NCBI GenBank assembly: GCA_903871335.1
Contig: CAIQGE010000011.1
Location: 1-34,252 of the forward strand
Reading direction: 5' to 3'
Source: an uncultured Actinomycetes bacterium
Lineage (GTDB): Bacteria > Actinomycetota > Acidimicrobiia > Acidimicrobiales > RAAP-2
DNA length: 34,252 bases
Position numbers and translations under genes: made by a program. Each line of letters opens with the position of its first letter. Position 1 is the stretch's first letter. This document shows positions 7,092 through 32,321 of the stretch, piece after piece. The notes below the pieces were generated by a model. It had not been told where the DNA came from. It saw only the letters and a list, made by a program, of their open reading frames with translations, and made no database searches.

Positions 7092-7910
7092 GTGTCTGAG
7101 CGTCCTCTTCGCCTCGCAACGATCGACGGCTACGCGGTTGAAGGCGGGTTTGATCACGGAGACGCACCGGCGACTTGTTACTCCGCGGCTATTCAACTCG
7201 GCCACATCGAAGGCCCGAAAAGCGAGGAGAACCTCTTCACGCAGTTGGGCCCGGTCATCTCCCTCGTCCCCGAGATTGGCCTAGACGGAATTGCCCTGAC
7301 TGTCGAGTGGGCGCGCTTGGAGCCGCGAGTGGATCAGGTGAACGAGGCGGCGTACGAGACCTACGCCGAGGCGCTGCGTCACGCGCGGTCGCTCGGTCTG
7401 TTCTGTTCGGTCGTGTTAGTGGATTCCGCGTGGCCGTCGTGGCTCGGTCCCGAAGCCTGGCTGCTGCCCTGGACGTTCGAGCGGCTGACGACCCACGCTC
7501 GTCGCGTACGAGAACGTCTGGACGGTCTTGTTGACAATGTCGTGCCGTTCGCGCACGCCGAGGAACTTGTTCGAGGTGGTTTCAACGACGGTTCGCGGCC
7601 GCCGTGGCGCCGCCGCGCGACGGCAGACGGCGCGGCCGCGCGAGATCAATTGGAGCGCCTCGTTCGTCGCTGCGCTGACGATAACGTTCTCGGCCCGTTG
7701 GCCCGACGACGAATCCGCGAACTGCCGGTGACGGGACCGGCGAGTGCACTCGCGACGACGTTGGCGTCGGTGCGAGGCGTCGATGACATCCATTTGCGAT
7801 CGCTCGTGCGAGGAAGTGGTCCGACCGCATCAGCCGCCGGCATGGTGGCGTGGCGTGAGGAGCGTTGGCAGGTGGTCCTGGGTGACGACGTCCGTGAGGC
7901 TCTCGCCTAG
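7092..7910 (+). CDS. divergent, shortened GH1-like (beta-glucosidase fold) protein
   Basis: The 272-residue protein follows the N-terminal half of glycoside hydrolase family 1: an opening like A-T-x-x-Y-x-x-E-G-G, then ELGLDGIALTVEWARLEP-type helix and strand (GIALTVEWARLEP), a VNEAAYETYAEAL helix, and a WTFERLTTHARRVRERL helix leading to VVPFAHAEELV, where GH1 enzymes have the acid/base T-x-N-E-P strand. GH1 enzymes are about 450 residues long; here the second half, including the usual nucleophile motif T-E-N-G, is missing. Catalysis on a normal GH1 route is therefore doubtful. Starts at 7086 or 7092 (both GTG) are possible; neither has a separated ribosome site. It overlaps the DedA gene tail to tail by four bases. 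The GH1 relationship rests on motif order and is moderately sure. Confidence 0.7.
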   Translation: MSERPLRLATIDGYAVEGGFDHGDAPATCYSAAIQLGHIEGPKSEENLFTQLGPVISLVPEIGLDGIALTVEWARLEPRVDQVNEAAYETYAEALRHARSLGLFCSVVLVDSAWPSWLGPEAWLLPWTFERLTTHARRVRERLDGLVDNVVPFAHAEELVRGGFNDGSRPPWRRRATADGAAARDQLERLVRRCADDNVLGPLARRRIRELPVTGPASALATTLASVRGVDDIHLRSLVRGSGPTASAAGMVAWREERWQVVLGDDVREALA

Positions 7911-7913
7911 GAC
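7890..7913. terminator. weak hairpin at a convergent gene junction
   Basis: GTCC-gtg-AGGC-tctc-GCCT-a-GGAC forms an eight-pair stem with an internal loop, spanning both stop codons of the convergent genes ending at 7910 and 7907. There is no T-run. Confidence 0.4.
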
Positions 7914-8590
7914 GCGTTCGGATCGCCCGTATCAAAGTCGGGGTGTTCAGCCAACCACGCGGCCTCTTCAGCTTGCTCTTTTTTCTTGCTTCGAAAGTGT
8001 CGCCACACGAAGAACGTCACGACCAGGGCGAGCAAGATCAGTCCACCCACGGACGCGTAGTGCTCGACCTTCGCCAGTGCGCTGCCGGCGAGGTAGCCGA
8101 GCAGGGTGAAGCCAATTCCCCAGACCAATCCTCCCGCGGCGTTGGCCACAAAAAAGCGCCGGTAGTGCATCTTGCTCATTCCGGCGAGGCCCGGCATCAC
8201 GGCACGAAGGAAAGCGGTGAAGCGACCGATAAAGACGTAGCGCGGTCCTTGTTTTTGTAGGTTTTCGAGCGCCCGTTCGAGCGCGACGCGGCGGTGGCGG
8301 ATGACCGGGAATCCGAGTATCCGATGTCCGTATCGTTCTCCCACGAAGTAGCCAACGGAGTCCCCAATGATCGCCGCGACAACCACGATGCCGCACAGCA
8401 CGAAGATGTTGACGTGTCCGCGGCTGGCGACGGCGCCGCCGACGAGGACTGCGGTCTCTCCCGGGAGAATGAACCCCAAGAAGATCGCCGCCTCGCCAAA
8501 GACCAGGGCGAAAATAACGACGTAAACGAACGTCGGGCTGAGTTTTTGGATTTCGTTTAAGACCCAGGTAAGAATCGCCGCGGTTTGCAT
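7907..8590 (-). CDS. DedA family (SNARE-associated/VTT) membrane protein
   Basis: The 227-residue protein has the DedA/VTT layout. It opens with an amphipathic N-terminus, then the ALVFGEAAIFLGFILPGE re-entrant motif (conserved E and P-G-E, residues ~33-46) and GDSVGYFVGERYG. After a central basic loop comes FIGRFTAFLRAVMPGLAGMSKM, the conserved F-x-R-(x)n-R-x-x-x-x-x-x-x-G signature, followed by two C-terminal helices. DedA proteins act in the cytoplasmic membrane as proton-linked or lipid-scrambling transporters, for example of undecaprenyl phosphate in some members. The ATG at 8590 is used; a GTG lies one codon earlier. The C-terminal tail is Lys/Glu-rich and cytoplasmic. It is divergent from the DoxX-Rieske gene. 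Confidence 0.92.
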   Translation of the reverse strand: MQTAAILTWVLNEIQKLSPTFVYVVIFALVFGEAAIFLGFILPGETAVLVGGAVASRGHVNIFVLCGIVVVAAIIGDSVGYFVGERYGHRILGFPVIRHRRVALERALENLQKQGPRYVFIGRFTAFLRAVMPGLAGMSKMHYRRFFVANAAGGLVWGIGFTLLGYLAGSALAKVEHYASVGGLILLALVVTFFVWRHFRSKKKEQAEEAAWLAEHPDFDTGDPNAS

Positions 8591-8658: not shown

Positions 8659-9840
8659 ATGCCTGCACCCAAGCCCACCAGCACGCCCTTTATCGACACG
8701 GTGAGCCCGCCGCCTCGTGCGGCGTCGCTCAGCGACTGGGCCCTGCTGCCGTTACGTCTCTTCTTGGGCGTCACGTTCTTGTACGCCGGGATTCAGAAGT
8801 TTTCCAATCCACACTTTTTTGACGCAAAGGACCCGTCCTCGATTCAAGCCCAGTTCCAGGGCTCCGTGCGCGTCAGTCCCATCGGCTCGCTGCTCGCGCA
8901 CTTTTCGGGTGCCGCGCTCACGATTGGCATCATCATCGCCGTGGCCGAGATTGCCATTGGTCTCGGGACGCTCGTGGGACTCTTGAGCAGGGTCGCGGCT
9001 ATTGGCGGCGCCATTTTGAGCTTCACGCTGTTTCTCACCGTCTCGTTCCACTCGACGCCGTATTTCACGGGCGCGGACATTGTTTTCTTTTTCGCCTGGA
9101 TGCCCATGATCGTGGCCGCCCCCTCGATGCGTCTGTCGCTGGACGGGTACATCAAGCGCCGCGCGACGCGAGAGTTCGGTGCCCCCGATCCGTCGGTGGT
9201 GGCCGTCACCTTTGCGCAGGTTCAGTCCGTGTGCGGCGCGTACAAGAAGGGCGCGTGCAGCGCCCGCGGCGATGGCAAGTGTGTGCCGCACGGCTGTCCC
9301 TTTCTCGACGACGTACCCAACGTGACCGAAGAAGTGGGCGCACGAGTTGATCGTCGAACCGCATTGCTCACCGCGACGTCGGCCGGAATTGCGGCGGGTA
9401 CATCGATCCTGCTTGCGGGCGCCGCCGTCGGTGCCGGTCAAGTCGCCAAGAACAACGCCCAGGGTGGCACTACCCATTTGACCGTTGGTTCGACAACGAC
9501 GACGCCGGGAGCAACAACGACGCCGGGGACGAGTGGACTCAGTCTCGGACCGGCGTCCAGCATCAAGGTGAATTCATCGGCCACGTTCACTATCCCGAGT
9601 TCTGGCGACCCGGGACTCGTGATCCGCACCGCGGAGAACACGTTCGTCGGCTACGACGCAACGTGCACTCACGCCGGTTGTCCAGTGAATTATTCCCCCG
9701 GACAAAATCGCATCATGTGTCCGTGCCACGGCTCGCAGTTCGATGCGGCGACGGGTCAAGTTCTCCAGGGACCAGCCACGACGGGGCTGACGGTGCTGAA
9801 CATCGTCGAAGGCGCGAACGGCGACCTCTACTTGCAGTAG
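8659..9840 (+). CDS. DoxX / Cys-cluster / Tat-like / Rieske fusion protein
   Basis: One 393-residue frame joins four parts. Residues ~26-165 are a four-helix DoxX (DoxD-like) membrane domain (LRLFLGVTFLYAGIQKF). Residues 192-213 carry a cysteine cluster C-x7-C-x7-C-x4-C. Residues 230-262 look like a twin-arginine signal or internal anchor (VDRRTALLTATSAG then a hydrophobic stretch). A Thr/Pro-rich linker (about 276-293) leads to a Rieske domain with both iron-sulfur motifs: C336-T-H338 and C354-P-C-H357, plus the disulfide cysteines 341 and 356. The likely role is electron transfer between quinol or an unknown donor and an extracytoplasmic acceptor; DoxD is a thiosulfate:quinone oxidoreductase subunit in archaea. 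Start 8659 has AAAGGA at good spacing. The reaction is unknown. The Tat step would need the TatA system encoded nearby. Confidence 0.88.
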   Translation: MPAPKPTSTPFIDTVSPPPRAASLSDWALLPLRLFLGVTFLYAGIQKFSNPHFFDAKDPSSIQAQFQGSVRVSPIGSLLAHFSGAALTIGIIIAVAEIAIGLGTLVGLLSRVAAIGGAILSFTLFLTVSFHSTPYFTGADIVFFFAWMPMIVAAPSMRLSLDGYIKRRATREFGAPDPSVVAVTFAQVQSVCGAYKKGACSARGDGKCVPHGCPFLDDVPNVTEEVGARVDRRTALLTATSAGIAAGTSILLAGAAVGAGQVAKNNAQGGTTHLTVGSTTTTPGATTTPGTSGLSLGPASSIKVNSSATFTIPSSGDPGLVIRTAENTFVGYDATCTHAGCPVNYSPGQNRIMCPCHGSQFDAATGQVLQGPATTGLTVLNIVEGANGDLYLQ

Positions 9841-12241: not shown

Positions 12242-13472
12242 CGGCGTGAATTCCTATGACGTGATCATCGTGGGCGCCGGACTGGCGGGTCTGCGGGCCG
12301 CGCAAGTTCTGCAGCGACCGGGGCTGCACGTGGGTCTGCTCGACGCGGCAGCTCAGGTGGGAGGCCGTGTCGCTACGGACGTCGTGGACGGTTTTGTCAT
12401 CGACCGCGGCTTTCAAATCATCAACACGGCCTATCCCGAACTTCGCGCCGCGGTCGACCTCGCAACATTGTCGTTGGCGCCCTTCGAGCGCGGAGTGGTC
12501 CTTCGGCACCACGGAGCGGACCACGTGGTTCGTGACCCGAGGCAAGATCCTCGAAGCATCGCGACAACGCTTCGCGCATTTCCCGGCAACGCGCAGGATC
12601 TTCTTCGCGCGGGTCGCCTGATCACCCGGGTGTCGCGACCCAGCGTCACACATCTCGAAACGGCGCCCGACGTGTCGACCATCGACGCCTTGCGGGAACT
12701 GGGGTTTACCTCGAGGGTGATCGAGGAATTGTGGCGGCCGTTCTTGTCGGGTGTTCTTCTACGTGATGACCTCGCAACGTCCTGGCGCTTCACGTCGTTA
12801 GCGTTGCGAAGTTTCGTTCGAGGGACACTGGGTGTGCCCGCTCAGGGTGTGCGTGCCCTGCCCCAATTGATGGCCTCGTCACTGGCCAATGTGGACATCC
12901 ATCTATCCACGCGTGTGCGATCGGTGAGTGCGCATGCCGTGCGGAGCGACGATGCATCATTCAGCGCCAAGGTGGTCATTGTGGCCACTGAGGCGGCGGC
13001 AGCGCGGGGCTTGATCCCGGGGATATCGGCGCCAGAGGAGAACGGGGTGACGACGTCGTGGTTTGCGACGCCTTCGCTCAACGGAACTCCGATCCTGCGT
13101 CTTGATCTGGACGGACGTCGAACGACGAACATGGTGGACATGTCGGCGGCCTCGCCTGCGTACGCACCACCAGGTTCGTCACTCATTGCCGCGAGCTACA
13201 ACGGTGCACGTCGGGTCGAGGATGAACACCGAGTTGCCGAGGACGTGGCGCGCCTCTACGGTCTCGCGACCGCGGACGTACAGCTCATTGTGAGGAACGA
13301 GATCCCACACGCGCTGCCTGATCTACGTCCACCCCTCTCGCTACGACGTGACCTTTCCATTGATGGTGTCCTTGTCGCGGGCGACTGGACGGAAACGCCG
13401 TCGATTCAAGGTGCGCTCGTGAGCGGTCGTCGCGCCGCTCGTCGCGCTCTGTCGCTAGTGGGCGAGTCGTAA
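12234..13472 (+). CDS. FAD-dependent amine oxidase / phytoene desaturase-like oxidoreductase
   Basis: The 412-residue protein begins with the dinucleotide fold DVIIVGAGLAGLRAAQVL, a ribose-binding acidic residue in GLLDAAAQVGGRV and the downstream GGR motif of the NAD(P)-binding-8/amine oxidase group. Near the C-terminus the FAD motif GVLVAGDWTETPSIQGALVS is intact. The family oxidises or desaturates amines, terpenoids or other lipophilic substrates; the precise one is unknown. The start used is the GTG at 12234, which overlaps the stop of the membrane protein gene by eight bases; a GTG at 12246 is an alternative. Its 3' end overlaps the convergent ogt gene by 18 bp. Confidence 0.88.
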   Translation: MSNGVNSYDVIIVGAGLAGLRAAQVLQRPGLHVGLLDAAAQVGGRVATDVVDGFVIDRGFQIINTAYPELRAAVDLATLSLAPFERGVVLRHHGADHVVRDPRQDPRSIATTLRAFPGNAQDLLRAGRLITRVSRPSVTHLETAPDVSTIDALRELGFTSRVIEELWRPFLSGVLLRDDLATSWRFTSLALRSFVRGTLGVPAQGVRALPQLMASSLANVDIHLSTRVRSVSAHAVRSDDASFSAKVVIVATEAAAARGLIPGISAPEENGVTTSWFATPSLNGTPILRLDLDGRRTTNMVDMSAASPAYAPPGSSLIAASYNGARRVEDEHRVAEDVARLYGLATADVQLIVRNEIPHALPDLRPPLSLRRDLSIDGVLVAGDWTETPSIQGALVSGRRAARRALSLVGES

Positions 13473-13958
13473 GGGCTCAGCGAGATCGACACCGCGGGTG
13501 TCGGCGTCTTCGAGGCGCAGCAAGAACGTCTTCACGTCGAGACCGCCGCCGTAACCACCGAGACCGTTCACGGCGATGACGCGATGGCACGGAACGAAAA
13601 TGGGCCACGGATTTCGACCATTGGCGTTCCCGACGGCCCGGTACGCGTGCGGCCGTCCGACCGCAATGGCAATTTCGGCGTACGACCTCACTTCGCCGTA
13701 GGGAATCGCGGTCAGGGCGAGCCACACGTCGTGTTGAAAAGGTGTTCCTCGCAAGTGCAAGTCCACCGAAAACGTCGTCCGCTCCTTTGCGAAGTATTCG
13801 GTGAGCTGCGTCGCCGCTTCGCTGAGAGCTCGTGGAGCGACAGACGTCGTCGGGCGCACGCGATCGTTCGGCATATGGACTTCGGTGATGCCGTCGGCGT
13901 CGCCCTCGACGACCCACGGGCCAATGGCCGAAGGAACGAGTATCCGCGCGGTGTCCAC
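13455..13958 (-). CDS. ogt: methylated-DNA--protein-cysteine S-methyltransferase
   Basis: The 167-residue suicide repair protein moves alkyl groups from O6-alkylguanine to its own cysteine. It shows the active-site motif FVPCHRVI with Cys124, the DNA-binding helix IPYGEVRSYAEIA (residues 85-97), the arginine-finger region RAVGNANGRNP and the C-terminal GLGGYGGGL loop. The length is normal for Ogt/MGMT. The GTG start at 13958 gives the expected N-terminal domain; no ribosome site precedes it, but TAAACC lies 6 nt upstream. The gene is divergent from the epoxide-hydrolase-like gene (47 bp apart) and overlaps the convergent FAD oxidoreductase by 18 bp. The symbol is by family; ada-type regulation is not seen. 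Confidence 0.95.
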   Translation of the reverse strand: MDTARILVPSAIGPWVVEGDADGITEVHMPNDRVRPTTSVAPRALSEAATQLTEYFAKERTTFSVDLHLRGTPFQHDVWLALTAIPYGEVRSYAEIAIAVGRPHAYRAVGNANGRNPWPIFVPCHRVIAVNGLGGYGGGLDVKTFLLRLEDADTRGVDLAEPLRLAH

Positions 13959-13964
13959 GCGCTC

Positions 13965-13970
13965 GGTTTA
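13965..13970 (-). promoter_or_regulatory. possible leaderless -10 box for ogt, TAAACC
   Basis: On the minus strand TAAACC is 6 nt before the GTG at 13958. The last base is C instead of the expected T, so it is a weak match at the recurrent spacing. Confidence 0.35.
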
Positions 13971-13993
13971 GCAGAGTGGCGTCGCGAACGCGC

Positions 13994-13999
13994 TACGTT
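13994..13999 (+). promoter_or_regulatory. leaderless -10 box, TACGTT
   Basis: TACGTT is followed by six bases and the ATG at 14006, with no ribosome site between. It fits the TANNNT-6 nt-start layout. Confidence 0.55.
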
Positions 14000-14005
14000 C
14001 GGGCG

Positions 14006-14839
14006 ATGGACGAGCGTGTGGTGCAACGAGGAGACGTGCGGCTGCGCGTGCGAACGTACGGTGAGGGTGAATCAGTGCTTTTGTTGCACGGGTGGCCCGA
14101 CACGGGTGACGTGTGGAGTGAGGTCGTACCGTTCTTGGTCCACGCCGGGTATCGATGCCTGGTCCCCGACTTGCGCGGGTGCGGACAGTCGTCAAAGCCC
14201 GAGGACGTCGCCGCGTACAAGATGTTCGAACTCGTCGCCGACGTGATGGCCATCATTGATGAACTGGGCGAAGGTCCCGTCGTCCTCGTGGGACACGACT
14301 GGGGGGCCAACGTGGCCTGGGTCACCGCCGCGTACGCCCCCGAGCGCGTATCGCGACTGGCGGCATTCTCGGTGGGGCACCCGACGTCGTTTCGTTCGTC
14401 AGGATTGGAACAGCAGATCAAGAGTTGGTACACCTTGCTATTTGCGCACGAAGGTCTCGGTGAGGCCTTCCTTCGACGACACGACTACGAAGCCATGCGC
14501 ACCTGGCTCGGACATCCTCGGGTGGAAGAAGTGATTACCGAACTGGAACGCGACGGCCAAATGCGAACTCACTTGCTCTGGTACCGCGCGAATATTCCAC
14601 CCGAAGCATTCGTCGCGGATCCTCCGGTGTTACCGCCGATTGCCGTACCCACGCTCGGGGTCTGGTCGACGGGCGACTTCGCTCTCAGCGAACGTCAAAT
14701 GTCGAATTCACGCGACTACTGCACCGCAGGGTTTCATTTCGAACGACTCGAAGGATTCGGGCACTGGCTGCCACTCGAGTCACCGCAGGTCGCTTCGGAT
14801 GTACTGATCAACTTCGTGCGCGCGACCGAAGAACAATGA
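14006..14839 (+). CDS. epoxide hydrolase-like alpha/beta hydrolase
   Basis: The 277-residue protein has the HGWP oxyanion motif (28-31) and the nucleophile elbow GHDWGA with Asp98 rather than Ser, which marks epoxide hydrolases and haloalkane dehalogenases. The acid is probably Asp224 (STGDFAL) and the base His253 (GFGHWLPLE). Tyr142 and Tyr193 in the cap region are candidates for the two epoxide-activating tyrosines, and HGWP favours epoxide hydrolase over dehalogenase. It would open an epoxide to a diol in the cytoplasm. The ATG at 14006 is preferred to the upstream in-frame start at 13976 because a TACGTT box lies 6 nt before it. It is a single gene ahead of the pnt operon. Confidence 0.88.
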   Translation: MDERVVQRGDVRLRVRTYGEGESVLLLHGWPDTGDVWSEVVPFLVHAGYRCLVPDLRGCGQSSKPEDVAAYKMFELVADVMAIIDELGEGPVVLVGHDWGANVAWVTAAYAPERVSRLAAFSVGHPTSFRSSGLEQQIKSWYTLLFAHEGLGEAFLRRHDYEAMRTWLGHPRVEEVITELERDGQMRTHLLWYRANIPPEAFVADPPVLPPIAVPTLGVWSTGDFALSERQMSNSRDYCTAGFHFERLEGFGHWLPLESPQVASDVLINFVRATEEQ

Positions 14840-23789: not shown

Positions 23790-23875
23790 AATGACCTTGA
23801 CCCTGTAGACCAAAACTTTGGGTAAACGGGCAGCCAACCTCTGAGGTCGCCTTACGAGGAATCAGCACTCTGTCG

Positions 23876-24508
23876 TTACTGAGTTGGTGGCAGTTCGTGG
23901 AGAGATTCTTGCGCGACGCCGAAAATGAAGAACTTCTCCAAATACGCACTCGGGTCGTGTGACCAGTCATAGGCCCGGACTTCGTCGAGTGTGCGGCGAC
24001 CAAACCGAGCTCGAAAGAGTTCCCAATCCGATGTCGTCAGGGAAATGCTCTCGAGTCCCGTCGCCTTTATGGATTCTTCGAAGTATCCGAGGAGTTTGGG
24101 GCCAATCCAGGGAATGAAACCAACGGGAAGGGCCGCGGGTTCGCCGTACGCGTTGGCGATATCGGCGAGGTGTGTCACGACGTCAGCGACCGCGTGCCAC
24201 TGCCCGTGAGTCTCATCACCAGACAGCATCTCTTCAAGAATTACTGCACCCACCGACCACTCTTCTAAGAGCTGCTCGAGAGACTTTGATGCGCCGCGCT
24301 CAACTTGGGCCGCGGTCCACGGCTCGCCCGGTGCACCGGCAAAGTTGCCGGTGCGTCCATCCTCGATCACTCCCGCGAGGTGGGAACACACCTCGCGCAC
24401 CGACCACAATGGCGTCGCGGGAACTGGCGTCGACGCGTCGTGCGTGGTCGTAAGTCGAATAATTTCTTCTCGCGCGGTTCGGTAGGCCACACCCAGATCA
24501 ATAGTCAT
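23876..24508 (-). CDS. maleylpyruvate isomerase N-terminal/DinB-fold protein
   Basis: The 210-residue protein fits the actinobacterial TIGR03083/MDMPI-N type, a four-helix DinB-like fold. It has LWSVREVCSHLAGVIEDG with His43 after the first helix, the WTAAQVERGASKSLEQLLEEW segment, and a second metal pair Asp109/His113 in WHAVADVVTHLADI, corresponding to the Glu/His pair of the mycothiol-dependent isomerase. The family commonly uses mycothiol with a metal ion, but many members have unknown reactions. The ATG at 24508 has TAAGGT exactly 6 nt upstream, so the transcript is probably leaderless, and the gene may be expressed apart from the methyltransferase upstream. Confidence 0.85.
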   Translation of the reverse strand: MTIDLGVAYRTAREEIIRLTTTHDASTPVPATPLWSVREVCSHLAGVIEDGRTGNFAGAPGEPWTAAQVERGASKSLEQLLEEWSVGAVILEEMLSGDETHGQWHAVADVVTHLADIANAYGEPAALPVGFIPWIGPKLLGYFEESIKATGLESISLTTSDWELFRARFGRRTLDEVRAYDWSHDPSAYLEKFFIFGVAQESLHELPPTQ

Positions 24509-24514
24509 TCGAGA

Positions 24515-24520
24515 ACCTTA
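24515..24520 (-). promoter_or_regulatory. leaderless -10 box, TAAGGT
   Basis: On the minus strand TAAGGT is followed by six bases and the ATG at 24508, with no ribosome site. It fits the recurrent TANNNT-6 nt-start layout. Confidence 0.55.
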
Positions 24521-24584
24521 TTCTCACCGGCCGAATTGCGCGCTCGTGACGAGAATTGCGTGCCACGCCGAAATTGTTACGTCG

Positions 24585-25232
24585 CTAAACGGTCGACGAC
24601 GATCCTGACGCAGGTCGCACCAACGATCTTTCCCGGTGCAGTGGCTCGCGGGACAATTGCTGAGCTCGTGCGCGATCAACGTGAGCGGCGTCGTGCAACG
24701 GCCCGGCTTGCTTTTGTGCAACGACCATGGTGTCGCGCCAGTCCTCGCTGCCATCTCCCCACGCAACGTCGTCCGATTGAGCGACGTCCACCACACTCAA
24801 TCCGCCCCACATCGCGAGTGCCGTCAAACCTTCGGGCAGATAGCGGTAACAGTCGATGGGATACGAATGCTCTGGACCCGAACCGGGAACAATGATGCAG
24901 ACGAGCCCACCGGGGCGAACCACGCGTGCGTACTCCGTCACGACCACCCACGGGAACGCGACGTGTTCGAGGACTTGACCGCTCACGAGGACGTCCACGG
25001 AGTCGTCGGGAAAGGGGAGCGCTCCATAAGGTTCGGCGAGCACGACGTCAACGTTGGGACCTTCCTCGAGGTCACATCCGATGTACTGCCACGTGGGCGA
25101 CGTCAAGAGATGTTTGTAGGTGCCGTTGACGTCGGCGGAACCGTGGTCCACAATGACGAGCGATTCGTCGGCGCGGTGGGCAAGGAACGTCGCCACGAAC
25201 TGGGCCATGCAGGCCAGTGAACTCTTGTGCAT
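24585..25232 (-). CDS. class I SAM-dependent methyltransferase
   Basis: The 215-residue protein has a methyltransferase-11-like core: motif I is atypical (SLVIVDHGSADVNG), followed by the acidic strand end in YIGCDLEEGPNVDVV, the post-I region LPFPDDSVDVLVSGQVLEH and GGLVCIIVPGSG. It opens with MHKSSLACMAQFV, a start seen in proteins methylating sugars or antibiotic-like scaffolds. The core ends near residue 172; the last 35-40 residues are Arg/Ser-rich and unlike the rest, which could be a lineage-specific tail. The substrate is unknown. It lies 53 bp downstream of the NAD(P)-binding/DUF2867 gene on the same strand and may share its transcript. Confidence 0.82.
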   Translation of the reverse strand: MHKSSLACMAQFVATFLAHRADESLVIVDHGSADVNGTYKHLLTSPTWQYIGCDLEEGPNVDVVLAEPYGALPFPDDSVDVLVSGQVLEHVAFPWVVVTEYARVVRPGGLVCIIVPGSGPEHSYPIDCYRYLPEGLTALAMWGGLSVVDVAQSDDVAWGDGSEDWRDTMVVAQKQAGPLHDAAHVDRARAQQLSREPLHRERSLVRPASGSSSTV

Positions 25233-25285
25233 TTTGTACTAAGGCCCTTCCGTGCGTGACCATTATTCCTACGATCCGCGGATGC

Positions 25286-26722
25286 CTAACGTACTTCGGA
25301 TTCCTTGACAACGCCGCGGAGCAACCCGGGAAACACGAGGGAGTGAAACGGAAGAACCGCGTACCAGTACAGGCGCCCCCAGAGGCCGCGGGGCTTAAAA
25401 CGCGCCCGTTGGGTCAGGCGAGATCCCGCCTCGGTGGGCTCGATCGTCCACTCCAACCATGCGTCGCCCGGGAGCAACATTTCGGCGTGCAAGCGAAGAA
25501 AATTCGGGGCGGACAACTCTTCCACTCGCCAAAAGTCCACGAAGTCGCCGGTCACGAGATCCTTAGGATCTCGCCGCCCGCGTCGCAAGCCGGGGCCTCC
25601 CCACAGCACGTCAATGAATCCTCTAATGCGCCAGAGCCATTCTCCGGAGTACCACCCGTGATCACCACCGAGAGTGCACAACGTGGCGAACAGTCTCTCG
25701 GGTGACGCTGGAGAAGTGGTCACTCGTTCATCGATGAGTTCGGTCCCGCCCGCCCACGACGGGTCCGTCTCGTAGCGACGAAAGGGCTGCAAGTCGGCTC
25801 CGGTAAAGGACGTCGGGACGTCGCCGTCGCGGGTACGGCCGAGAGCGAGACGAATGGCGTCGCGCAAACTGTGTTGGGGGGCGCCGAGGTCGCGAATAGT
25901 TCGATCGTCACTTACGACCACCTCGTTCACGAGGCTGTCGACGAGAGGACGCGCCAACGACGCCGGCACGGGCGTGACGATGCCCACCCAGTGGCTGGAG
26001 AGTCGAGGAGTGAGAACGGGAACCGGGATGAGGCGTCGACGCCGCAGTCCGGCCTCCTCTGCGTACAGGGCCATCATCTCCGCGTAGGAGACAACGTCGG
26101 GTCCGCCGATTTCGTAGACGCCGGGAAAAGGATCCGGATTCTCGATGACCCGCAAGAGATAGGTCAGAACATCGGCGATCGCGATGGGCTGCGAGCGCGT
26201 GGTGACCCACTTGGGTGTCACCATCACGGGCAGAACTTCGACCAGGTATCTGAGCATCTCAAAACTTGCCGATCCCGAACCAATGATGACGGCGGCGCGA
26301 AGTTCCGTCACGGGGATCTTCCCGGCCGCGAGGGTGCGACCAACGGCGTGGCGACTGGAGAGGTGCTCACTCAATCGGGCGTCGTCGGCACCCATGCCGC
26401 CAAGGTAAATGATCCGCCCGACTCCCGCCACTTCGGCCGCGCGACGAAACTGTTCCGCGTCACGTACTTCCTTTGCGACCCAATCAGGTCCGTCCCCGAT
26501 ACCGTGCACCAAATACACCGCGACGTCGCAGTCGTCCATCGCACCGGCCGGTGTATTCCCGACTTCTCCTTCCACGATGGTCACGTCGTCGCGCCACGCG
26601 ACCCGGTCGAGTTTCCCGGGCCGCCGCACGAGGCATCGCACCTGGTGACCATCTCGCAAGAGCCGTGGGACCAGCCGGCCACCGACGTATCCCGTAGCCC
26701 CCGTCACGAAGACGCGACTCAT
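25286..26722 (-). CDS. NAD(P)H-binding (atypical SDR) domain fused to DUF2867
   Basis: The 478-residue protein has an N-terminal Rossmann domain beginning VFVTGATGYVGGRLVPRLL (GATGYVGG, residues 8-15) with CLVRRP after strand 2, which favours NADP(H), and IIYLGGMGAD in place of the catalytic Ser strand, as in the NmrA/complex-I-NDUFA9-like atypical SDRs. From about residue 310 a DUF2867/SRPBCC-like domain follows (RLFATLCTLGGDHGWY, FWRVEELSAPNFLRLHAEM, SRLTQRARFKPRGLWGRLYWY). The fusion is known in bacteria, but its substrate is not. It starts 32 bp after the heliorhodopsin stop on the same strand, so the two are probably co-transcribed. Confidence 0.9.
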   Translation of the reverse strand: MSRVFVTGATGYVGGRLVPRLLRDGHQVRCLVRRPGKLDRVAWRDDVTIVEGEVGNTPAGAMDDCDVAVYLVHGIGDGPDWVAKEVRDAEQFRRAAEVAGVGRIIYLGGMGADDARLSEHLSSRHAVGRTLAAGKIPVTELRAAVIIGSGSASFEMLRYLVEVLPVMVTPKWVTTRSQPIAIADVLTYLLRVIENPDPFPGVYEIGGPDVVSYAEMMALYAEEAGLRRRRLIPVPVLTPRLSSHWVGIVTPVPASLARPLVDSLVNEVVVSDDRTIRDLGAPQHSLRDAIRLALGRTRDGDVPTSFTGADLQPFRRYETDPSWAGGTELIDERVTTSPASPERLFATLCTLGGDHGWYSGEWLWRIRGFIDVLWGGPGLRRGRRDPKDLVTGDFVDFWRVEELSAPNFLRLHAEMLLPGDAWLEWTIEPTEAGSRLTQRARFKPRGLWGRLYWYAVLPFHSLVFPGLLRGVVKESEVR

Positions 26723-26754
26723 AGTGACGACCTGTGGCGATGCTGGAAAGTCAT

Positions 26755-27510
26755 CTAGTGCCCAATGGATGTGGCGGTGAGTGTGGAGGCGAAAATCTGC
26801 CAGGCCAAAAGTGACTTCGCCACGAAGGAGAGGACGATGTAGGTCTTCTCACCAACGAGGTAGTCGGCGAAGAGCCCAATCTTCTTGTACTGCAAGTACT
26901 GGACGAGAGCGAAACAGTTGAACGCTACGAAGAGTGACACGTAAATTCCGTAGACGAAACCGGGCGCGTGCGCGTGAGCTCCGGGACCAATCAGGTACAC
27001 GCCGATGGCCAACCAGGGAATGACCCCTGCGCCGCAACCTAACCAGAAGGGTGTGAGTCCCCCGCCGGGCGTTTCGTAACGCTCCTGCATCCAGCCGAAA
27101 CCAATCATGGACGCGTTGACGCCAATCAGCGCGAGGAGTGCGGCGACATCCGCAATACCCGTGAGTTCCGCAATCGCTACGATCATCAGCGACGACGACA
27201 CGGAGTACTCGAGCCAGCGGTACGGATTTCGCTGGCGCGCGAGATGGGATTCGTACCGTGCACGCAATGGTCCCGAAATGAGAAAGTGAGCGATCGCGGA
27301 CAACGCGAAGAATGCCGCGATAAGCCACGCCATGTGGAAACTCGTGAGCTGCACGTACTGCCGTGCGGTCGTTCCGGGGGGACCGGTCATGTAGTGCGCG
27401 GTGACCGGAACCGCAAAATTATTGGCGAGGACCAGAACGACAATTGCCGAGATGGCGTGCACACTGCCCGCCGCCAGATTGAGGCGACGAAGTCGGGAGA
27501 GTTCGGGCAT
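26755..27510 (-). CDS. heliorhodopsin
   Basis: The 251-residue seven-helix protein matches the heliorhodopsins. Lys232 in helix 7 (YIVLSFVAKSLLAWQIFAS) is the retinal Schiff-base lysine, and Glu101 in RNPYRWLEYSVSSSLMI is the helix 3 counterion. His18 and His75 are spaced 57 apart, as are the two buried histidines of the founding heliorhodopsin 48C12. The family sits in the membrane with inverted orientation, has a slow photocycle and shows no ion pumping in most members; sensory or enzyme-regulating roles are proposed. Retinal synthesis genes are not in this window. The ATG at 27510 follows AAGGA. The next gene on the strand, an NAD(P)-binding/DUF2867 protein, is 32 bp away and is a candidate partner. 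Confidence 0.95.
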   Translation of the reverse strand: MPELSRLRRLNLAAGSVHAISAIVVLVLANNFAVPVTAHYMTGPPGTTARQYVQLTSFHMAWLIAAFFALSAIAHFLISGPLRARYESHLARQRNPYRWLEYSVSSSLMIVAIAELTGIADVAALLALIGVNASMIGFGWMQERYETPGGGLTPFWLGCGAGVIPWLAIGVYLIGPGAHAHAPGFVYGIYVSLFVAFNCFALVQYLQYKKIGLFADYLVGEKTYIVLSFVAKSLLAWQIFASTLTATSIGH

Positions 27511-27630
27511 GGGGGTCCTTCATTTTGTAGAGCAGCCTCACGTCACGGTACCGGTCTTGTTCAGTGATCAAACGCGACACGCTCTTTGCGTTGACCCACC
27601 GCCCTACGCAGGTGGCGCATCGATGGCCAC

Positions 27631-28167
27631 ATGTCCGACAATCGAGACATACCAAAACCTCTCGAGTTGCCCTGCGTCGGTCAAGGAATTTGCTTCGTCC
27701 GCTTTCAACAGGGCATTTGGATTGTTTTTGACGATGGTGAGTTCGTCTACGACGCGAAGTGCTTCGCGCGAATTCATGAGTTTGATTCGCTCGTTATCTC
27801 TGTGGTCGGCGACGACGGCAAAGTGATCACGACGGTGACGAGGGAAGGCGACCCTGAAGAATTCCCCAAGATCTTGTTCCAACTCTGGACGACGTCGGTG
27901 TTCTCTCCCCACATTGGAACGGACTCTGCGCCACGGATCGAGACATTGTCGGGGGTGAGACGAGAGGTGGCGCTTCACGAGAGAATCGAAGCCTATGAAT
28001 TCAAATGCTCGGCATTCTCGATGTCTTGCCACCCCGGCAGCTTTCGAGGAGACGTCCAAGGTTTGATGTTCTCGCGCGACCATGACTTTGAGCATCGGAT
28101 CATGCGAACGATGACCTCACTGATGCGACGGAGTCGCTGGACTCGGTCGCAACAAGCGCGCTCATGA
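27631..28167 (+). CDS. hypothetical protein, 178 aa (tentative)
   Basis: No family is recognised. The frame has plausible protein composition for its first 150 residues (for example CFVRFQQGIWIVFDDGEFV and SLVISVVGDDGKVITTVTRE, alternating strands), is soluble, and holds five cysteines. The start is uncertain: the ATG at 27631 has only a weak ribosome site, although AGGTGG lies at 27610-27615. Its last 68 bases overlap the end of the convergent tetR gene, and that tail is Arg-rich, so the true end is also doubtful. A competing frame on the minus strand (27604-28095) is less convincing. The gene is divergent from the heliorhodopsin, 120 bp away. It may be a decayed or lineage-specific gene. 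Confidence 0.5.
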   Translation: MSDNRDIPKPLELPCVGQGICFVRFQQGIWIVFDDGEFVYDAKCFARIHEFDSLVISVVGDDGKVITTVTREGDPEEFPKILFQLWTTSVFSPHIGTDSAPRIETLSGVRREVALHERIEAYEFKCSAFSMSCHPGSFRGDVQGLMFSRDHDFEHRIMRTMTSLMRRSRWTRSQQARS

Positions 28168-28762
28168 TGATGTCCGTCATTGTTGCGATGTAGCTCTCAG
28201 GCTCGATGCCGCCGTCGATGTCGTCAAAGGCGGCCGAAAGGGCGTGCAAGGTAAAGGGCGCTTCAGCACCGTGGGCCACCATGAAGAAGAGCCCGCGAGT
28301 GGAGATCGGCCGAATCTGTCCACTCTGTCGCAGCCGGTCGAGGAGTCCGGAAATCTGTGCGATCTGAGGACGAACAACCGTCTGTATGACGTAGTCCGAT
28401 CTCCACGTCGACTCCGCACCTTCCTGATTCATCAGCTGACCCAGCGCCGGGAATTGCGAGGTCGCCGCGAGAAACGAGTAGATAAGGATCCGAAGTTCGT
28501 TGAGGTCATCGCGTGATGGAGGCCAACTGACTCGTTGGCGTGCTATTTCGTCGAAAAATCGCCGAAACTCGGCGTCGATTGCTGTTCGATAGAGGTTCTC
28601 TTTCGAACCAAATCGTTGACCGAGGGTGCTGTGACTCAAGCCCAGATTCACACTTAACGTCCGCAGCGAGACACCTTCGTAGCCGTGGGCGGCAAAAGCG
28701 GCGAGAGCAGACGCGAGGAGTTCGGCGTCGGAACGAAGTTTGGGACGACCTCGACTCACCAT
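28100..28762 (-). CDS. TetR family transcriptional regulator
   Basis: The 220-residue repressor has the N-terminal TetR helix-turn-helix: an AAFAAHGYEGVSLRTLSVNL helix pair then GLSHSTLGQRFGSKENLYRT (residues 41-60), followed by an all-helical ligand and dimerisation domain. The N-terminus is short and basic (VSRGRPKLRS). The ATG at 28762 follows AAAGGG. The gene is divergent from the VOC dioxygenase-SDR-monooxygenase operon across 140 bp that contain two inverted repeats and an AT-rich core, so it most likely represses that operon and itself until a substrate or product binds. The ligand is unknown. Confidence 0.92.
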   Translation of the reverse strand: MVSRGRPKLRSDAELLASALAAFAAHGYEGVSLRTLSVNLGLSHSTLGQRFGSKENLYRTAIDAEFRRFFDEIARQRVSWPPSRDDLNELRILIYSFLAATSQFPALGQLMNQEGAESTWRSDYVIQTVVRPQIAQISGLLDRLRQSGQIRPISTRGLFFMVAHGAEAPFTLHALSAAFDDIDGGIEPESYIATMTDIIMSALVATESSDSVASVRSSFA

Positions 28763-28902
28763 CAACAGCCCTTTCCTCTCATCGGCTACTCGGGTCCGTG
28801 GTGGTGCCCCCGAGTGTTGCGCTTGCGCTCACGTACCGCGCATCATAATATTAATTTGGCAGTTGCCTTATAAATTGCATTCGAACACATGGGGGAATCG
28901 TC
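28763..28902. promoter_or_regulatory. divergent promoter/operator region between tetR and the VOC operon
   Basis: The 140-bp region turns AT-rich at about 28841-28875, unlike its surroundings. It holds two inverted repeats suited to a dimeric repressor: GCGC-tt-GCGC (28819-28828, flanked by GTG and CAC) and GGCA-gt-TGCC (28858-28867). A TTATAA box (28868-28873) follows the second repeat directly, and a GGGGGA ribosome site (28891-28896) precedes the ATG at 28903. A repressor bound at 28858-28867 would block the plus-strand promoter. Confidence 0.55.
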
Positions 28903-29844
28903 ATGGCTTTAACTGACCTCTTGGATCTCCAACTCGCCGTGCCAGATCCTGATGCGTTGCAAGAGTTCTGGAATCGCCGTGGCTTACTCACGACGGGACC
29001 TGGTTGTTTGGGAACGCCAGAACGCGCGTCGCAACTGCGACTTATTGACGACGACTATCGCCACGTGAGCGAGGTGCGCGTCGCGTGCTCGGAGGAATCA
29101 GACCTGCGCTCGATCTCGATGGGCCTCGAAGCCCTGGGCCTTTCTTCCACGTCCGGTGATGGATGGCTCGAGAGTGTCGATCCCATCTTCGGTCACACGG
29201 TGCGCGTCGAGGTGGGGACCGCAGCACCATTGGCGCCAGCGACGGTACGCACGATGAATCGCCCCGGCGTGTCGGCGCGCATCGACCGCCGTTCGGAGGC
29301 TGCGCTCCGTGAGGATGTTCCCGCTCCTCGTCGCGTCGGACACGTTGTGTTTGGTTCACCCGATCCAGCCCGGAGCGTTGAGTATTACGTGAACGGGCTG
29401 GGGTTCAAAGTGTCCGACTCGTTGCCCGCCGTGCAGTCGACCTTCCTTCGCTGTTCCACCGACCACCACAGCGTGCTCATTATGCCCGCGCCGGTGCCGT
29501 GCATGAATCACTACGCCCTCGAAATGGATGACATTGACGCCATTGGTTTACGCGGTATCGAGATTGTGCAGGAACGCCCTGACGCGTCGATTTACGGAAT
29601 GGGTCGCCACGTCGTTGGCTCGAATGTCTTTTGGTACTTCCTCGATCCGGCCGGTGGCATGTTTGAGCTGTTCACCGATATGGACCAGATTCACGACGAC
29701 GAGAAGTGGGAGCGCGACGTGCGCCGGGACGACTGGGATCCGTTCACTATCGCGGCCTACGAGTCCGGCATCTCGAAGATGGATTTCTTCTTGCCGGTTG
29801 ATATTGACACGATCGCCGCCGGTCGCGAACGTGCGGGGCTCTAA
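28903..29844 (+). CDS. VOC-fold extradiol (type I) dioxygenase-like protein
   Basis: The 313-residue protein has two vicinal-oxygen-chelate modules. The first (residues 5-105) lacks metal ligands, while the second carries the facial triad His147 (RRVGHVVFGS), His203 (CMNHYALEM) and Glu255 (GGMFELFTD). This is the layout of catechol 2,3-dioxygenase and BphC-type enzymes, which use Fe(II) or Mn(II) to cleave a catechol next to its hydroxyls. His188 in STDHHSV is a candidate second-shell acid/base. A good ribosome site (GGGGGA) supports the start. It is the first gene of a three-gene unit under a divergent TetR and is directly followed by the SDR gene. The ring substrate cannot be inferred. Confidence 0.9.
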   Translation: MALTDLLDLQLAVPDPDALQEFWNRRGLLTTGPGCLGTPERASQLRLIDDDYRHVSEVRVACSEESDLRSISMGLEALGLSSTSGDGWLESVDPIFGHTVRVEVGTAAPLAPATVRTMNRPGVSARIDRRSEAALREDVPAPRRVGHVVFGSPDPARSVEYYVNGLGFKVSDSLPAVQSTFLRCSTDHHSVLIMPAPVPCMNHYALEMDDIDAIGLRGIEIVQERPDASIYGMGRHVVGSNVFWYFLDPAGGMFELFTDMDQIHDDEKWERDVRRDDWDPFTIAAYESGISKMDFFLPVDIDTIAAGRERAGL

Positions 29845-30624
29845 ATGGACCTTGGCATTAGCGGTAAATGGGCGCTCGTCAGCGGTTCGTCGCGTGGACT
29901 CGGTCGGGCGTGTGCCACATCTTTGGCGCGCGAGGGAGTGAACGTCGTCTTGTGCGCCCGTCACGGCGATGCAGGTGAACAAGTCGCCCGAGAACTTGGC
30001 GAGACTTTCGGTGTCACGGCACACTTCGTGGTGGCGGACGTCAGCACCCCTGAGGGTCGACGCATCTTTTTCGAACAACACGTGGAACCGGACATTCTCG
30101 TCACGAACGCCGCGGGGCCGTCGCCGACGGCCTTCGTCGATAACTCGCCGGACATGTGGCAAGCGGCATTCGACGCCAATTTTCACTCTGCTATCGGACT
30201 CATGCAATTAGTACTTCCGGGCATGAGGCAGCGGGGATTCGGGCGCGTGATCAATATCACCTCCGCGATGGTCACCTCGCCACATCCCTTCATGACGCTG
30301 TCGATTGCGGCTCGCACTGCACTCACCGGCGTCGCGAAAGCCGTCTCGAAAGAGGTGGTGGCGAACAACGTCACCATCAATAACATCCTTCCGGAGCGTA
30401 TCGACACCGACCGTCAACGACAAATGGCAGATCTCCAGGTGCAACTGCGGGGCATCTCGCTGGAGGAGGCCTACGCGGAAATCGCGCAGTCGATTGCCGC
30501 GGGTCGCTTGGGTCGCCCCGAGGAGGTGGGCGACGCGTGCGCTTTCCTGTGTTCCGCCCAGGCGGGATTCATTTCTGGAATGAATCTTCACGTGGACGGC
30601 GGCAGCTACGAAGGACTCATCTGA
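29845..30624 (+). CDS. SDR family protein with substituted active site
   Basis: The 259-residue short-chain dehydrogenase-like protein has the cofactor motif SGSSRGLGRA (13-22), Asp65 (VVADV), TNAAG (87-91), and the active-site Ser140 (VINITSAM). However, the Tyr and Lys expected at 153 and 157 are Ser153 and Arg157 (TLSIAARTAL). This S-x3-R replacement is seen in a known subgroup of FabG-like SDRs, so it is probably a family trait rather than damage; the chemistry of the subgroup is unclear. The C-terminal FISGMNLHVDGG motif is intact. The ATG directly follows the TAA of the dioxygenase and the stop overlaps the monooxygenase start (TGATG), so it is part of the same operon. Confidence 0.9.
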   Translation: MDLGISGKWALVSGSSRGLGRACATSLAREGVNVVLCARHGDAGEQVARELGETFGVTAHFVVADVSTPEGRRIFFEQHVEPDILVTNAAGPSPTAFVDNSPDMWQAAFDANFHSAIGLMQLVLPGMRQRGFGRVINITSAMVTSPHPFMTLSIAARTALTGVAKAVSKEVVANNVTINNILPERIDTDRQRQMADLQVQLRGISLEEAYAEIAQSIAAGRLGRPEEVGDACAFLCSAQAGFISGMNLHVDGGSYEGLI

Positions 30625-32321
30625 TGTTGCGACGCGGCGAGATGCTGACGGACGTCGACGTGCTGGTCGTCGGTGGTGGACCGGTGGGGCTGATCCAAAC
30701 ATTGCTGCTGGAACAACTCGGTGTGAAGGTGGCTGTCGTCGAACAACGACACGAGGCGCAAACGGCTCCGGCGGCGCACGTCATCAGCGCCCGTACGTTT
30801 GAAATCCTGCGGAGTCTCGGTCTCGACATGGACGCCGTGGAGGCTCTCTGTCAGCGACCTTCGGACGGAGGCTGGGTTCGTTGGGTGGAGTCTCTGCGCG
30901 GAGACGAAATCGGTCGCGTTCCCTTCGAGAGTCTCCATTTAGGCAACGAAACGCTTCGCACGTCCCCGCACCCTCTCCGAAATCTCTCTCAGCACCGTCT
31001 TGAACCGTTTTTACGTTCTCACGTGAGGGACTTGCGCGGAGGGCTCCGCTGGACCACCGCCCGCTACGAGGATGACGTCGTGGTGAGCACGCTGGTAGAC
31101 GTCACGAGCGGCGAGGATATTGAAATTCGTAGTCGGTACGTGATCGCCGCGGACGGTGCGGGTAGCGCCGTGCGCCGATTTTTGGGCGTGAAGATGATCG
31201 GACCGGAGGAAATTCAAAACTTTTTGGCCATCCACGTAGAGGCCGACCTTCGCGAGGTCGTTCGAGACCGACCAGGGACGCTCTACTGGATCACCGATCC
31301 GCAGCACGCCGGGACTTTCATCGCTCACGACCCCGCGACGACGTGGGTTTACATGCGCAATTTCGACCCGCGTTCGGAATCTCTCGCCGACTATTCTCCT
31401 GAACGCGCCGAGCTCATCTTTCGACAGGCGAGCAAGATGCCCGATGGAATTCCGCTGACCGTGCGGCACGTGACGACGTGGCGAATGTCCTTCCAGGTCG
31501 CCGAGACGTATCGAGTGGGGTCATTCTTTCTCGTCGGGGATGCAGCTCACCGTTTTCCGCCGACCGGTGGCTTGGGGCTCAATACGGGCGCACCCGACGC
31601 GCAGAATCTGGCCTGGAAATTGAAGCTCGTCCTTGACGGCGTCGCTCCCGACGATTTACTCGATACCTACGAACGTGAGCGTCACCCGGTCGCGGAGCGT
31701 AACGGGCAAACGAGTCTCGACAACGCGTTTCGATTGATGGATGTGTGGGTGGCTCTCGGAGTGAGCGACGACATCGACGAGTCTCGTCGAATGATGTCCG
31801 AGGTGTTATCAACGTCCGAGGGTCGAGAGAACGTGCGGCGCGCGATTGAAAATCAAGAGGAACACTTCGACCAACTGGGTGTGCAACTCGGAACGTCCTA
31901 CACAGTGGAGAGTGGCGGCATCGTGAGCGATGGCACGACGCCTCCTGTGCCGGCGAACGCGGTGCGTGAGTACATACCGTCGACGAGCCCTGGTGTGCGA
32001 TTGCCTCACGCGTGGTTGCAATCCCTGAACGGTCCGGTGTCGACGCTTGATCTGGTGACACCCGGAAAGTTCTTACTACTCACCAACTCCCCCGAGTGGC
32101 GAGATCTTCCCGGTGATCCGATGTGGCCACTCACCCGAGTATGTGTCGGGTCGGATGTCACCGATGACAGTGGAGCCTGGGCAGCCGTCTGTTCCATAGG
32201 AGAGCGAGGAGCGCTCGTGATTCGACCGGATCAACACGTAGCGTGGCGCACGACCAAAAGTCCCGGGAGCGCCGGTCCGCTCGCCGACGTGATGAATGCT
32301 CTGCTTCATCAAAGGTCCTAG
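30624..32321 (+). CDS. FAD-dependent aromatic hydroxylase-type monooxygenase
   Basis: The 565-residue protein is a group A flavoprotein monooxygenase of the PheA/MhpA/UbiH type. It has the FAD fold DVLVVGGGPVGLIQTLLLEQ (12-31), the mid-protein DG motif VIAADGAGSAVRRFLG that contacts both FAD and NADPH, and the GD motif FFLVGDAAHRFPPTGGLGLN. A C-terminal thioredoxin-like domain of about 100 residues follows, as in phenol hydroxylase-like members. Such enzymes hydroxylate phenolic rings to give catechols. A coupled monooxygenase plus extradiol dioxygenase suggests hydroxylation then ring cleavage. The ATG at 30624 shares a base with the SDR stop; an ATG at 30642 is possible. An intrinsic terminator lies 77 bp after the stop. 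Confidence 0.93.
   Translation: MLRRGEMLTDVDVLVVGGGPVGLIQTLLLEQLGVKVAVVEQRHEAQTAPAAHVISARTFEILRSLGLDMDAVEALCQRPSDGGWVRWVESLRGDEIGRVPFESLHLGNETLRTSPHPLRNLSQHRLEPFLRSHVRDLRGGLRWTTARYEDDVVVSTLVDVTSGEDIEIRSRYVIAADGAGSAVRRFLGVKMIGPEEIQNFLAIHVEADLREVVRDRPGTLYWITDPQHAGTFIAHDPATTWVYMRNFDPRSESLADYSPERAELIFRQASKMPDGIPLTVRHVTTWRMSFQVAETYRVGSFFLVGDAAHRFPPTGGLGLNTGAPDAQNLAWKLKLVLDGVAPDDLLDTYERERHPVAERNGQTSLDNAFRLMDVWVALGVSDDIDESRRMMSEVLSTSEGRENVRRAIENQEEHFDQLGVQLGTSYTVESGGIVSDGTTPPVPANAVREYIPSTSPGVRLPHAWLQSLNGPVSTLDLVTPGKFLLLTNSPEWRDLPGDPMWPLTRVCVGSDVTDDSGAWAAVCSIGERGALVIRPDQHVAWRTTKSPGSAGPLADVMNALLHQRS

Follow-up and report, generated by a model that had tools for sequence, protein, structure and literature searches.

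The window, by which we mean the whole stretch of 34,252 nucleotides that was analysed, contains a heliorhodopsin (HeR) gene at 26755-27510 on the reverse strand. Its 251-residue product matched PF18761 with 308 bits (cut-off 26.7) in the Pfam search and the NF038020 equivalog with 295.7 bits (cut-off 100) in the NCBIfam search. A spacer of 32 bp (26723-26754) separates it from a second reverse-strand gene (25286-26722), whose 478-residue product carries an NAD(P)-binding domain, PF13460 (65.1 bits), together with PF11066, or DUF2867 (128.7 bits, cut-off 27), according to Pfam. The presence of PF13460/NmrA and PF11066 in one chain identifies this protein as a fusion of the YbjT type. Its atypical-SDR Rossmann half (residues 1-299, 25826-26722) has a GATGYVG motif and an invariant Arg33 and lacks YxxxK, and its DUF2867 domain (25325-25756) was predicted to adopt a helix-grip (Bet v 1/START/SRPBCC) fold with a long C-terminal helix. 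A methyltransferase-like ORF (24585-25232), also on the reverse strand, begins 53 bp downstream of the fusion. These spacings are exactly those given in a preliminary description of the locus, which had also reported that the HeR retained Lys232, Glu101, His18 and His75; all four residues are in place. We take Lys232 to be the retinal lysine and Glu101 the counterion, and the roles of His18 and His75 are likewise presumed.

The genome from which the window derives (2.23 Mb in 39 contigs, 97.5% completeness) yielded a single HeR match and a single DUF2867 match. In the preliminary description a transcription start or terminator between the two genes was to count against the proposed partnership, and a sequence scan of positions 23800-28800 detected no promoter-like or terminator-like match in the 32-bp gap. 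The only promoter-like match in the scanned region was on the opposite strand (25126-25154; 1.0 expected). Six terminator-like matches were found against 4.3 expected, and one of these (26827-26815, reverse strand), which falls in the final 75 bp of the coding region of HeR, is at chance level. No clear conserved block that might represent a shared promoter motif was seen among eight regions upstream of HeR, for some of which the start sites were estimated. The HeR and fusion genes are probably co-transcribed in the window as a bicistronic unit.

The methyltransferase-like ORF could be co-transcribed with them in the window. Its classification was weak, as Methyltransf_11 matched with 42.8 bits and only the second half of the profile was covered. 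Its membership of the unit was weakened: tblastn found no counterpart in the related loci searched, some of which had short flanks (that of L005 ends 0.3 kb past the fusion), and the ORF is therefore probably outside the recurring unit. The methyltransferase of the Thermus cluster discussed below showed no real similarity to it either (E 0.14), and we rejected it as a third member. On the other side of the pair, positions 28100-32321 hold genes for a TetR regulator, a glyoxalase-fold protein, an SDR and an FAD aromatic-ring hydroxylase, which look like a small aromatic-degradation cluster. In the related locus L003, genes for MDMPI-like, TetR and glyoxalase proteins have been kept some 3.4-5.2 kb upstream of HeR. 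Fifteen of the de-duplicated loci, the window included, have a classical adh_short SDR cluster no more than 5 kb from HeR (median distance 2.3 kb); SDRs of this kind are common.

An AlphaFold model of the fusion had a pLDDT of 84.8. In structure alignments the best match of its Rossmann half was to the NDUFA9 subunit 7qsm_P (Z 28.7, 2.7 Å over 292 residues), followed closely by the epimerase-like MoeE5 (6kv9, Z 27.2), while Foldseek ranked sugar epimerases first. By sequence, the closest solved relatives were KstA11 and NDUFA9-type subunits. With UDP-sugar epimerases so close behind, the fold is not diagnostic of NDUFA9. Across 53 aligned proteins the glycines G8 and G11 (53/53 each), G14 (52/53) and Arg33 (53/53) were conserved, whereas the segment corresponding to YxxxK, its position judged by eye, reads HxxxR, with His120 in 52 and Arg124 in all 53. 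From these residues we infer that the fusion binds NADP(H) without classical dehydrogenase chemistry. Its earlier designation as a redox enzyme was weakened by the replacement of YxxxK with H120xxxR124 and by a fold nearly as close to the sugar epimerases.

The DUF2867 domain modelled alone (pLDDT 85.2) aligned with 7wa9 (Z 13.4, rmsd 2.5, 131 aligned residues) and, at Z of approximately 11-12, with aromatase/cyclases and PYL receptors. The model fits a Bet v 1/START/SRPBCC helix-grip fold, a type known for hydrophobic ligands, and at the level of fold this bears out the proposed ligand-binding-like character of the domain. The long predicted C-terminal helix spans residues 446-477. Homologues annotated as ybjT, with about 33% identity over 99% of the length, were found in E. 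coli and Klebsiella records.

Recurrence of the pair in related genomes had been set as a test of the partnership, and the pair does recur. Among 395 genomes drawn from the class, 172 had HeR matches and 172 had DUF2867 matches, and 78 had listed matches for both. The two genes were no more than 10 kb apart in at least 15 of these 78, compared with 0.67 pairs expected under uniform placement in 2.7 Mb. The corresponding Poisson value is about 1e-15, which ignores kinship among the genomes, and the RecA control gave 0 of 76 within 10 kb of HeR. Two families were left out of the pair count because each is missing from the genome table of the opposite search: f34 (group g89) among the HeR matches and f50 among the DUF2867 matches. 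The figure of 15 in 78, which includes L131 (6.9 kb apart, counted as unlinked in the trees), is a lower bound, because draft contigs hide links and only listed matches were counted.

Loci recovered by HeR similarity alone gave a comparable picture. In 9 of 45 the fusion or its Rossmann half lay within a few kb, including L019, which had no PF11066 match, and L033, in which the fusion is split into two ORFs. Outside the class, 3 of 60 HeR loci were linked: L174, L193 and L139, the last having the Rossmann protein alone. In L139 the gene for this protein (7394-8332), which lacks DUF2867, shares the strand of HeR and lies 31 bp upstream. HeR was also present on plasmids in two distant records.

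The pair occurred in several arrangements. HeR precedes the fusion by 32 bp in the window, by 31 bp in L003, L004 and L005, and by 3 bp in L123, and the two are spaced by -1 bp in L130. The reverse order was found with an overlap of 4 bp in L124 and L128 and with gaps of 37 bp in L122, 93 bp in L120, 1.1 kb in L174 and 2.9 kb in L126. On opposite strands, the fusion lies upstream of HeR in nine loci (L193, L121, L021, L019, L033, L127, L024, L032 and L045) and downstream in L118 and L119, with photolyase and acyltransferase genes between, and in L131 at 6.9 kb. L123 has a same-strand run of a B12 protein, HeR and the fusion, the last two being those 3 bp apart. In an unsystematic look, no HeR-DUF2867 gene fusion was met among the linked loci.

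The link was scattered on both gene trees. On the HeR tree (135 sequences) the label "linked" required at least 15 changes, 10 of them forced by starred branches, and on the DUF2867 tree (63 sequences) at least 11, of which 8 were forced; each change could represent a gain or a loss of the link. The variety of gene orders speaks for HeR and the fusion having been joined repeatedly. Eleven duplicate loci were omitted from the HeR tree, including L119, which is from another genome and has an identical 120-residue stretch, and three duplicates (L119, L125 and L129) were left off the DUF2867 tree together with L033, whose ORF is short. Locus set D, which was partly chosen for linkage, was included in the trees and in none of the frequencies. 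The fusions of the window, L003, L004, L005 and L130 formed one clade on the DUF2867 tree (99*), while the corresponding HeR sequences fell within a poorly resolved group of 12 on the HeR tree (96*), together with seven unlinked ones. One or several joining events are therefore possible for the window group.

Photolyase, acyltransferase and B12-binding proteins were among the products of genes found between or beside the pair. Counting the matches listed in the 78-genome set, HeR lay within 10 kb of a photolyase in 5 of 65 genomes and of a B12 protein in 6 of 53. The DUF2867 protein gave 6 of 65 and 7 of 53, respectively, and photolyase and B12 protein were themselves linked in 9 of 44. Each of these five combinations had an expectation of 0.42-0.53 pairs, and the RecA controls were 0/76 for HeR, 0/76 for DUF2867, 0/63 for photolyase and 0/51 for the B12 protein. 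Photolyase and B12 matches were kept at 130 bits or more, and one or two strong RecA matches were used per genome. Among 40 DUF2867 loci away from HeR, a B12-protein match was present in two and a photolyase in one. The idea of an exclusive partnership of two proteins is weakened by these counts, since both genes are also linked to photolyase and B12 regulators, and by four genomes of the window's own genus (G055, G122, G126 and G205) that carry HeR and DUF2867 genes at different places on long contigs.

The linked B12 proteins are CarH-like only. Residues W140, E150, H151 and H188 were invariant in all eight aligned, a pattern that we take to be CarH-type, with residue roles presumed. Scores against the CarH equivalog NF052513 (54.4 bits for L129 and 57.4 for L123) were far below its cut-off of 400. 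Pfam detected an HTH_17 domain in the L129 protein and B12 domains only in those of L123 and L127, and the L126 protein aligned without the HTH stretch. The B12 proteins of L123 (6624-7655), L127 (8406-9599) and L126 (9383-10366), all near HeR and the fusion, have no detected HTH and possess a C-terminal extension, and in L126 an ECF sigma factor gene (8763-9347) lies beside the B12 protein gene. These HTH-less proteins may feed light signals to a sigma factor in the manner of AerR. The cluster covered by L129 and L032, which are on the same contig, reads acyltransferase, photolyase, HeR, B12 protein and DUF2867 protein, and a fasciclin-domain protein is encoded between HeR and the B12 protein (L129, 4385-4978).

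In the window genome the photolyase gene is on another contig. An uncontrolled search of this genome with one LitR-like protein gave no match at E 1e-3, and a search with an eight-sequence CarH/LitR alignment at E 1e-10 recovered only a MetH-sized frame of 1172 residues, some match being obtained in 74 of the 78 genomes. Phytoene synthase was likewise not found there, while the control was positive in 7 of 14. A search for BCD had no match in any control genome and was thus uninformative. Given the completeness of the assembly, CarH/LitR and phytoene synthase are likely to be absent from the window genome. As its HeR has an intact retinal lysine and no phytoene synthase was found, the retinal would come from outside, and B12-driven repression and home-made retinal are not supported there by the sequence searches.

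More distant homologues of the fusion were recovered from Thermus thermophilus HB27 and HB8 (47% and 46% identity; the former full-length, with 227 of 481 residues identical). Each has ldrP/carH no more than 5 kb and phr no more than 7 kb away, and genes for phytoene synthase, P450 and lycopene cyclase are nearby. On pTT27 of HB27 (L219) a gene at 13426-14289, directly beside ldrP/carH, is annotated as a complex I NDUFA9 subunit family protein, which would by name belong to the same fold class as the Rossmann half of the fusion. In T. brockianus the fusion shares a core with an FAD/NAD(P) protein, an SDR, a flavin reductase and YceI, and no carH or phr is listed within 9 kb. Neither carH nor photolyase is listed in two Kitasatospora loci and one Allomeiothermus locus, for which the gene tables are incomplete. 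In K. fiedleri a spore photoproduct lyase family gene was found 2.8 kb from the DUF2867 fusion homologue. In view of T. brockianus, Kitasatospora and Allomeiothermus, the link to light is a strong pattern and not a rule.

The recurrence of the pair, its varied orders and operon-like gaps, the linkage to photolyase and B12-protein genes and the predicted folds are the observations from which we argue. We suggest, as the reading that we consider somewhat probable, that a single light/UV-stress gene set comprises HeR, the YbjT-type DUF2867 protein, photolyase and CarH/LitR-like B12 photoreceptors, and that in the window the first two form a bicistronic unit, which would be transcribed from upstream of HeR. 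The set as a whole would be that seen in this actinobacterial class. Since no B12 photoreceptor was found in the window genome, expression of the pair there would be driven otherwise. With less support, the DUF2867 protein is predicted to bind NADP(H), and its second domain to accommodate a hydrophobic ligand, either a lipid or an isoprenoid. It might thereby help to cope with photo-oxidised membrane components, to which response HeR may add a direct light input. For the heliorhodopsins, a widespread family whose role is poorly understood, a neighbour that recurs in several orders and lineages along with photolyase and B12 light sensors offers a concrete hypothesis, a shared response to photo-damage, and a named protein to study. 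The YbjT/DUF2867 family, which extends from E. coli to Thermus, gains a contextual clue to its own role.

A direct partnership, in which the DUF2867 protein would dock on the cytoplasmic loops of HeR and have its activity altered by light, appears to us doubtful, though worth keeping in view. The genes overlap or nearly touch in both orders, the helix at 446-477 of the modelled fusion could lie at the membrane, and binding of HeR has been measured for three neighbour pairs, with glutamine synthetase, photolyase and an ABC transporter, according to the available text of the reports (PMC9529153, PMC9769723, PMC11109279). However, co-regulation with photolyase and B12 proteins explains the linkage equally, the genes may be far apart in the window's genus, many other neighbours of HeR exist, and an unsystematic look at the linked loci gave no sign of a HeR-DUF2867 gene fusion. 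An extended form of the direct partnership seems improbable. It would make HeR and the B12 photoreceptors alternative light inputs to one effector, such that where CarH/LitR was lost, apparently the case in the window genome, HeR would bind the DUF2867 protein and switch its NADP(H)/lipid state at the membrane; if true, the fusion would be a light-switched NADP/lipid sensor and not a dehydrogenase.

Chance or hitchhiking, which would have made the genes neighbours only via genome rearrangement and shared ancestry, is very improbable. No link was seen among the matches listed in 63 of the 78 genomes with both genes, some of the links being concealed by many-contig drafts, and the single DUF2867 clade of the five linked fusions in the window group may reflect one event. 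The excess over expectation with no linked RecA, the several gene orders, the many changes on both trees and the linked loci outside the class all argue against it. Least probable is that the fusion handles retinal or apocarotenoids, reducing, oxidising or delivering retinal for HeR: the predicted Bet v 1/START-type fold, the need for uptake where no phytoene synthase was found and the carotenoid-gene neighbours of the Thermus homologues would suit this, but the fusion lacks YxxxK, among 127 genomes of the class that gave a DUF2867 match, 49 had no HeR in the matches listed, and homologues occur in records of E. coli and Klebsiella, neither of which is, to our knowledge, known to use retinal.

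Outside the light-related loci, E. coli YbjT has the same two-domain length as the fusion and is encoded in a genome that presumably has no HeR. NDUFA9, the 39-kDa subunit of complex I, and other atypical SDRs share the fold of the Rossmann half; unlike NDUFA9, the fusion has the additional DUF2867 domain, and a link to complex I is not in evidence.

Published work already places SDR, photolyase and MerR genes next to HeR. All three are among the ten neighbour groups in the available text of PMC11109279, where the SDR and MerR groups are without other grouped genes in the operon and the main text does not contain DUF2867. The window is similar in that a neighbour of Rossmann type, annotated as an oxidoreductase, accompanies HeR, and the photolyase and MerR groups resemble the linkage reported here. 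The run of B12 protein, HeR and fusion in L123 differs from the SDR and MerR operons as given there. A HeR-photolyase operon is known from Trichococcus (PMC9769723), and PMC12008989 describes photolyase and Sigma70 genes near HeR, photolyase being its neighbour in UBA5794 actinobacteria. Both resemble the present loci in having HeR beside UV-repair genes, but the accessible portions of the two papers describe neither a DUF2867 fusion nor a B12 photoreceptor in these operons. The available part of PMC8612252 places genes for photoprotection and UV repair near Znf-HeRs and also notes redox neighbours of HeR. In the literature searched, no linkage of DUF2867 or B12 proteins to HeR and no joint mention of heliorhodopsin and CarH were found, and the matches for heliorhodopsin with LitR were all to "litre". 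The term DUF2867 turned up in a single paper, which concerns osteopontin, and heliorhodopsin is mentioned together with cobalamin in five.

CarH and LitR repress in the dark and are released when light breaks AdoB12, and a light regulator of MarR type has also been described (both in the available text of PMC6739363). A LitR-type locus contains photolyase and short-chain dehydrogenase genes, and light induction was reported by qRT-PCR for pmlR1, phrB and ufaM (PMC9758184, in part). Light induction of the DUF2867 gene itself was not found in the literature searched; a paper whose title concerns a light-inducible Thermus megaplasmid cluster is cited in PMC11417400, as seen in its available text. 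The CarH/LdrP cluster on pTT27 of T. thermophilus differs from the window in that carotenoid genes are present and no HeR is listed, yet it brings a homologue of the fusion, a photolyase and CarH together in one region, with an acyltransferase in HB8.
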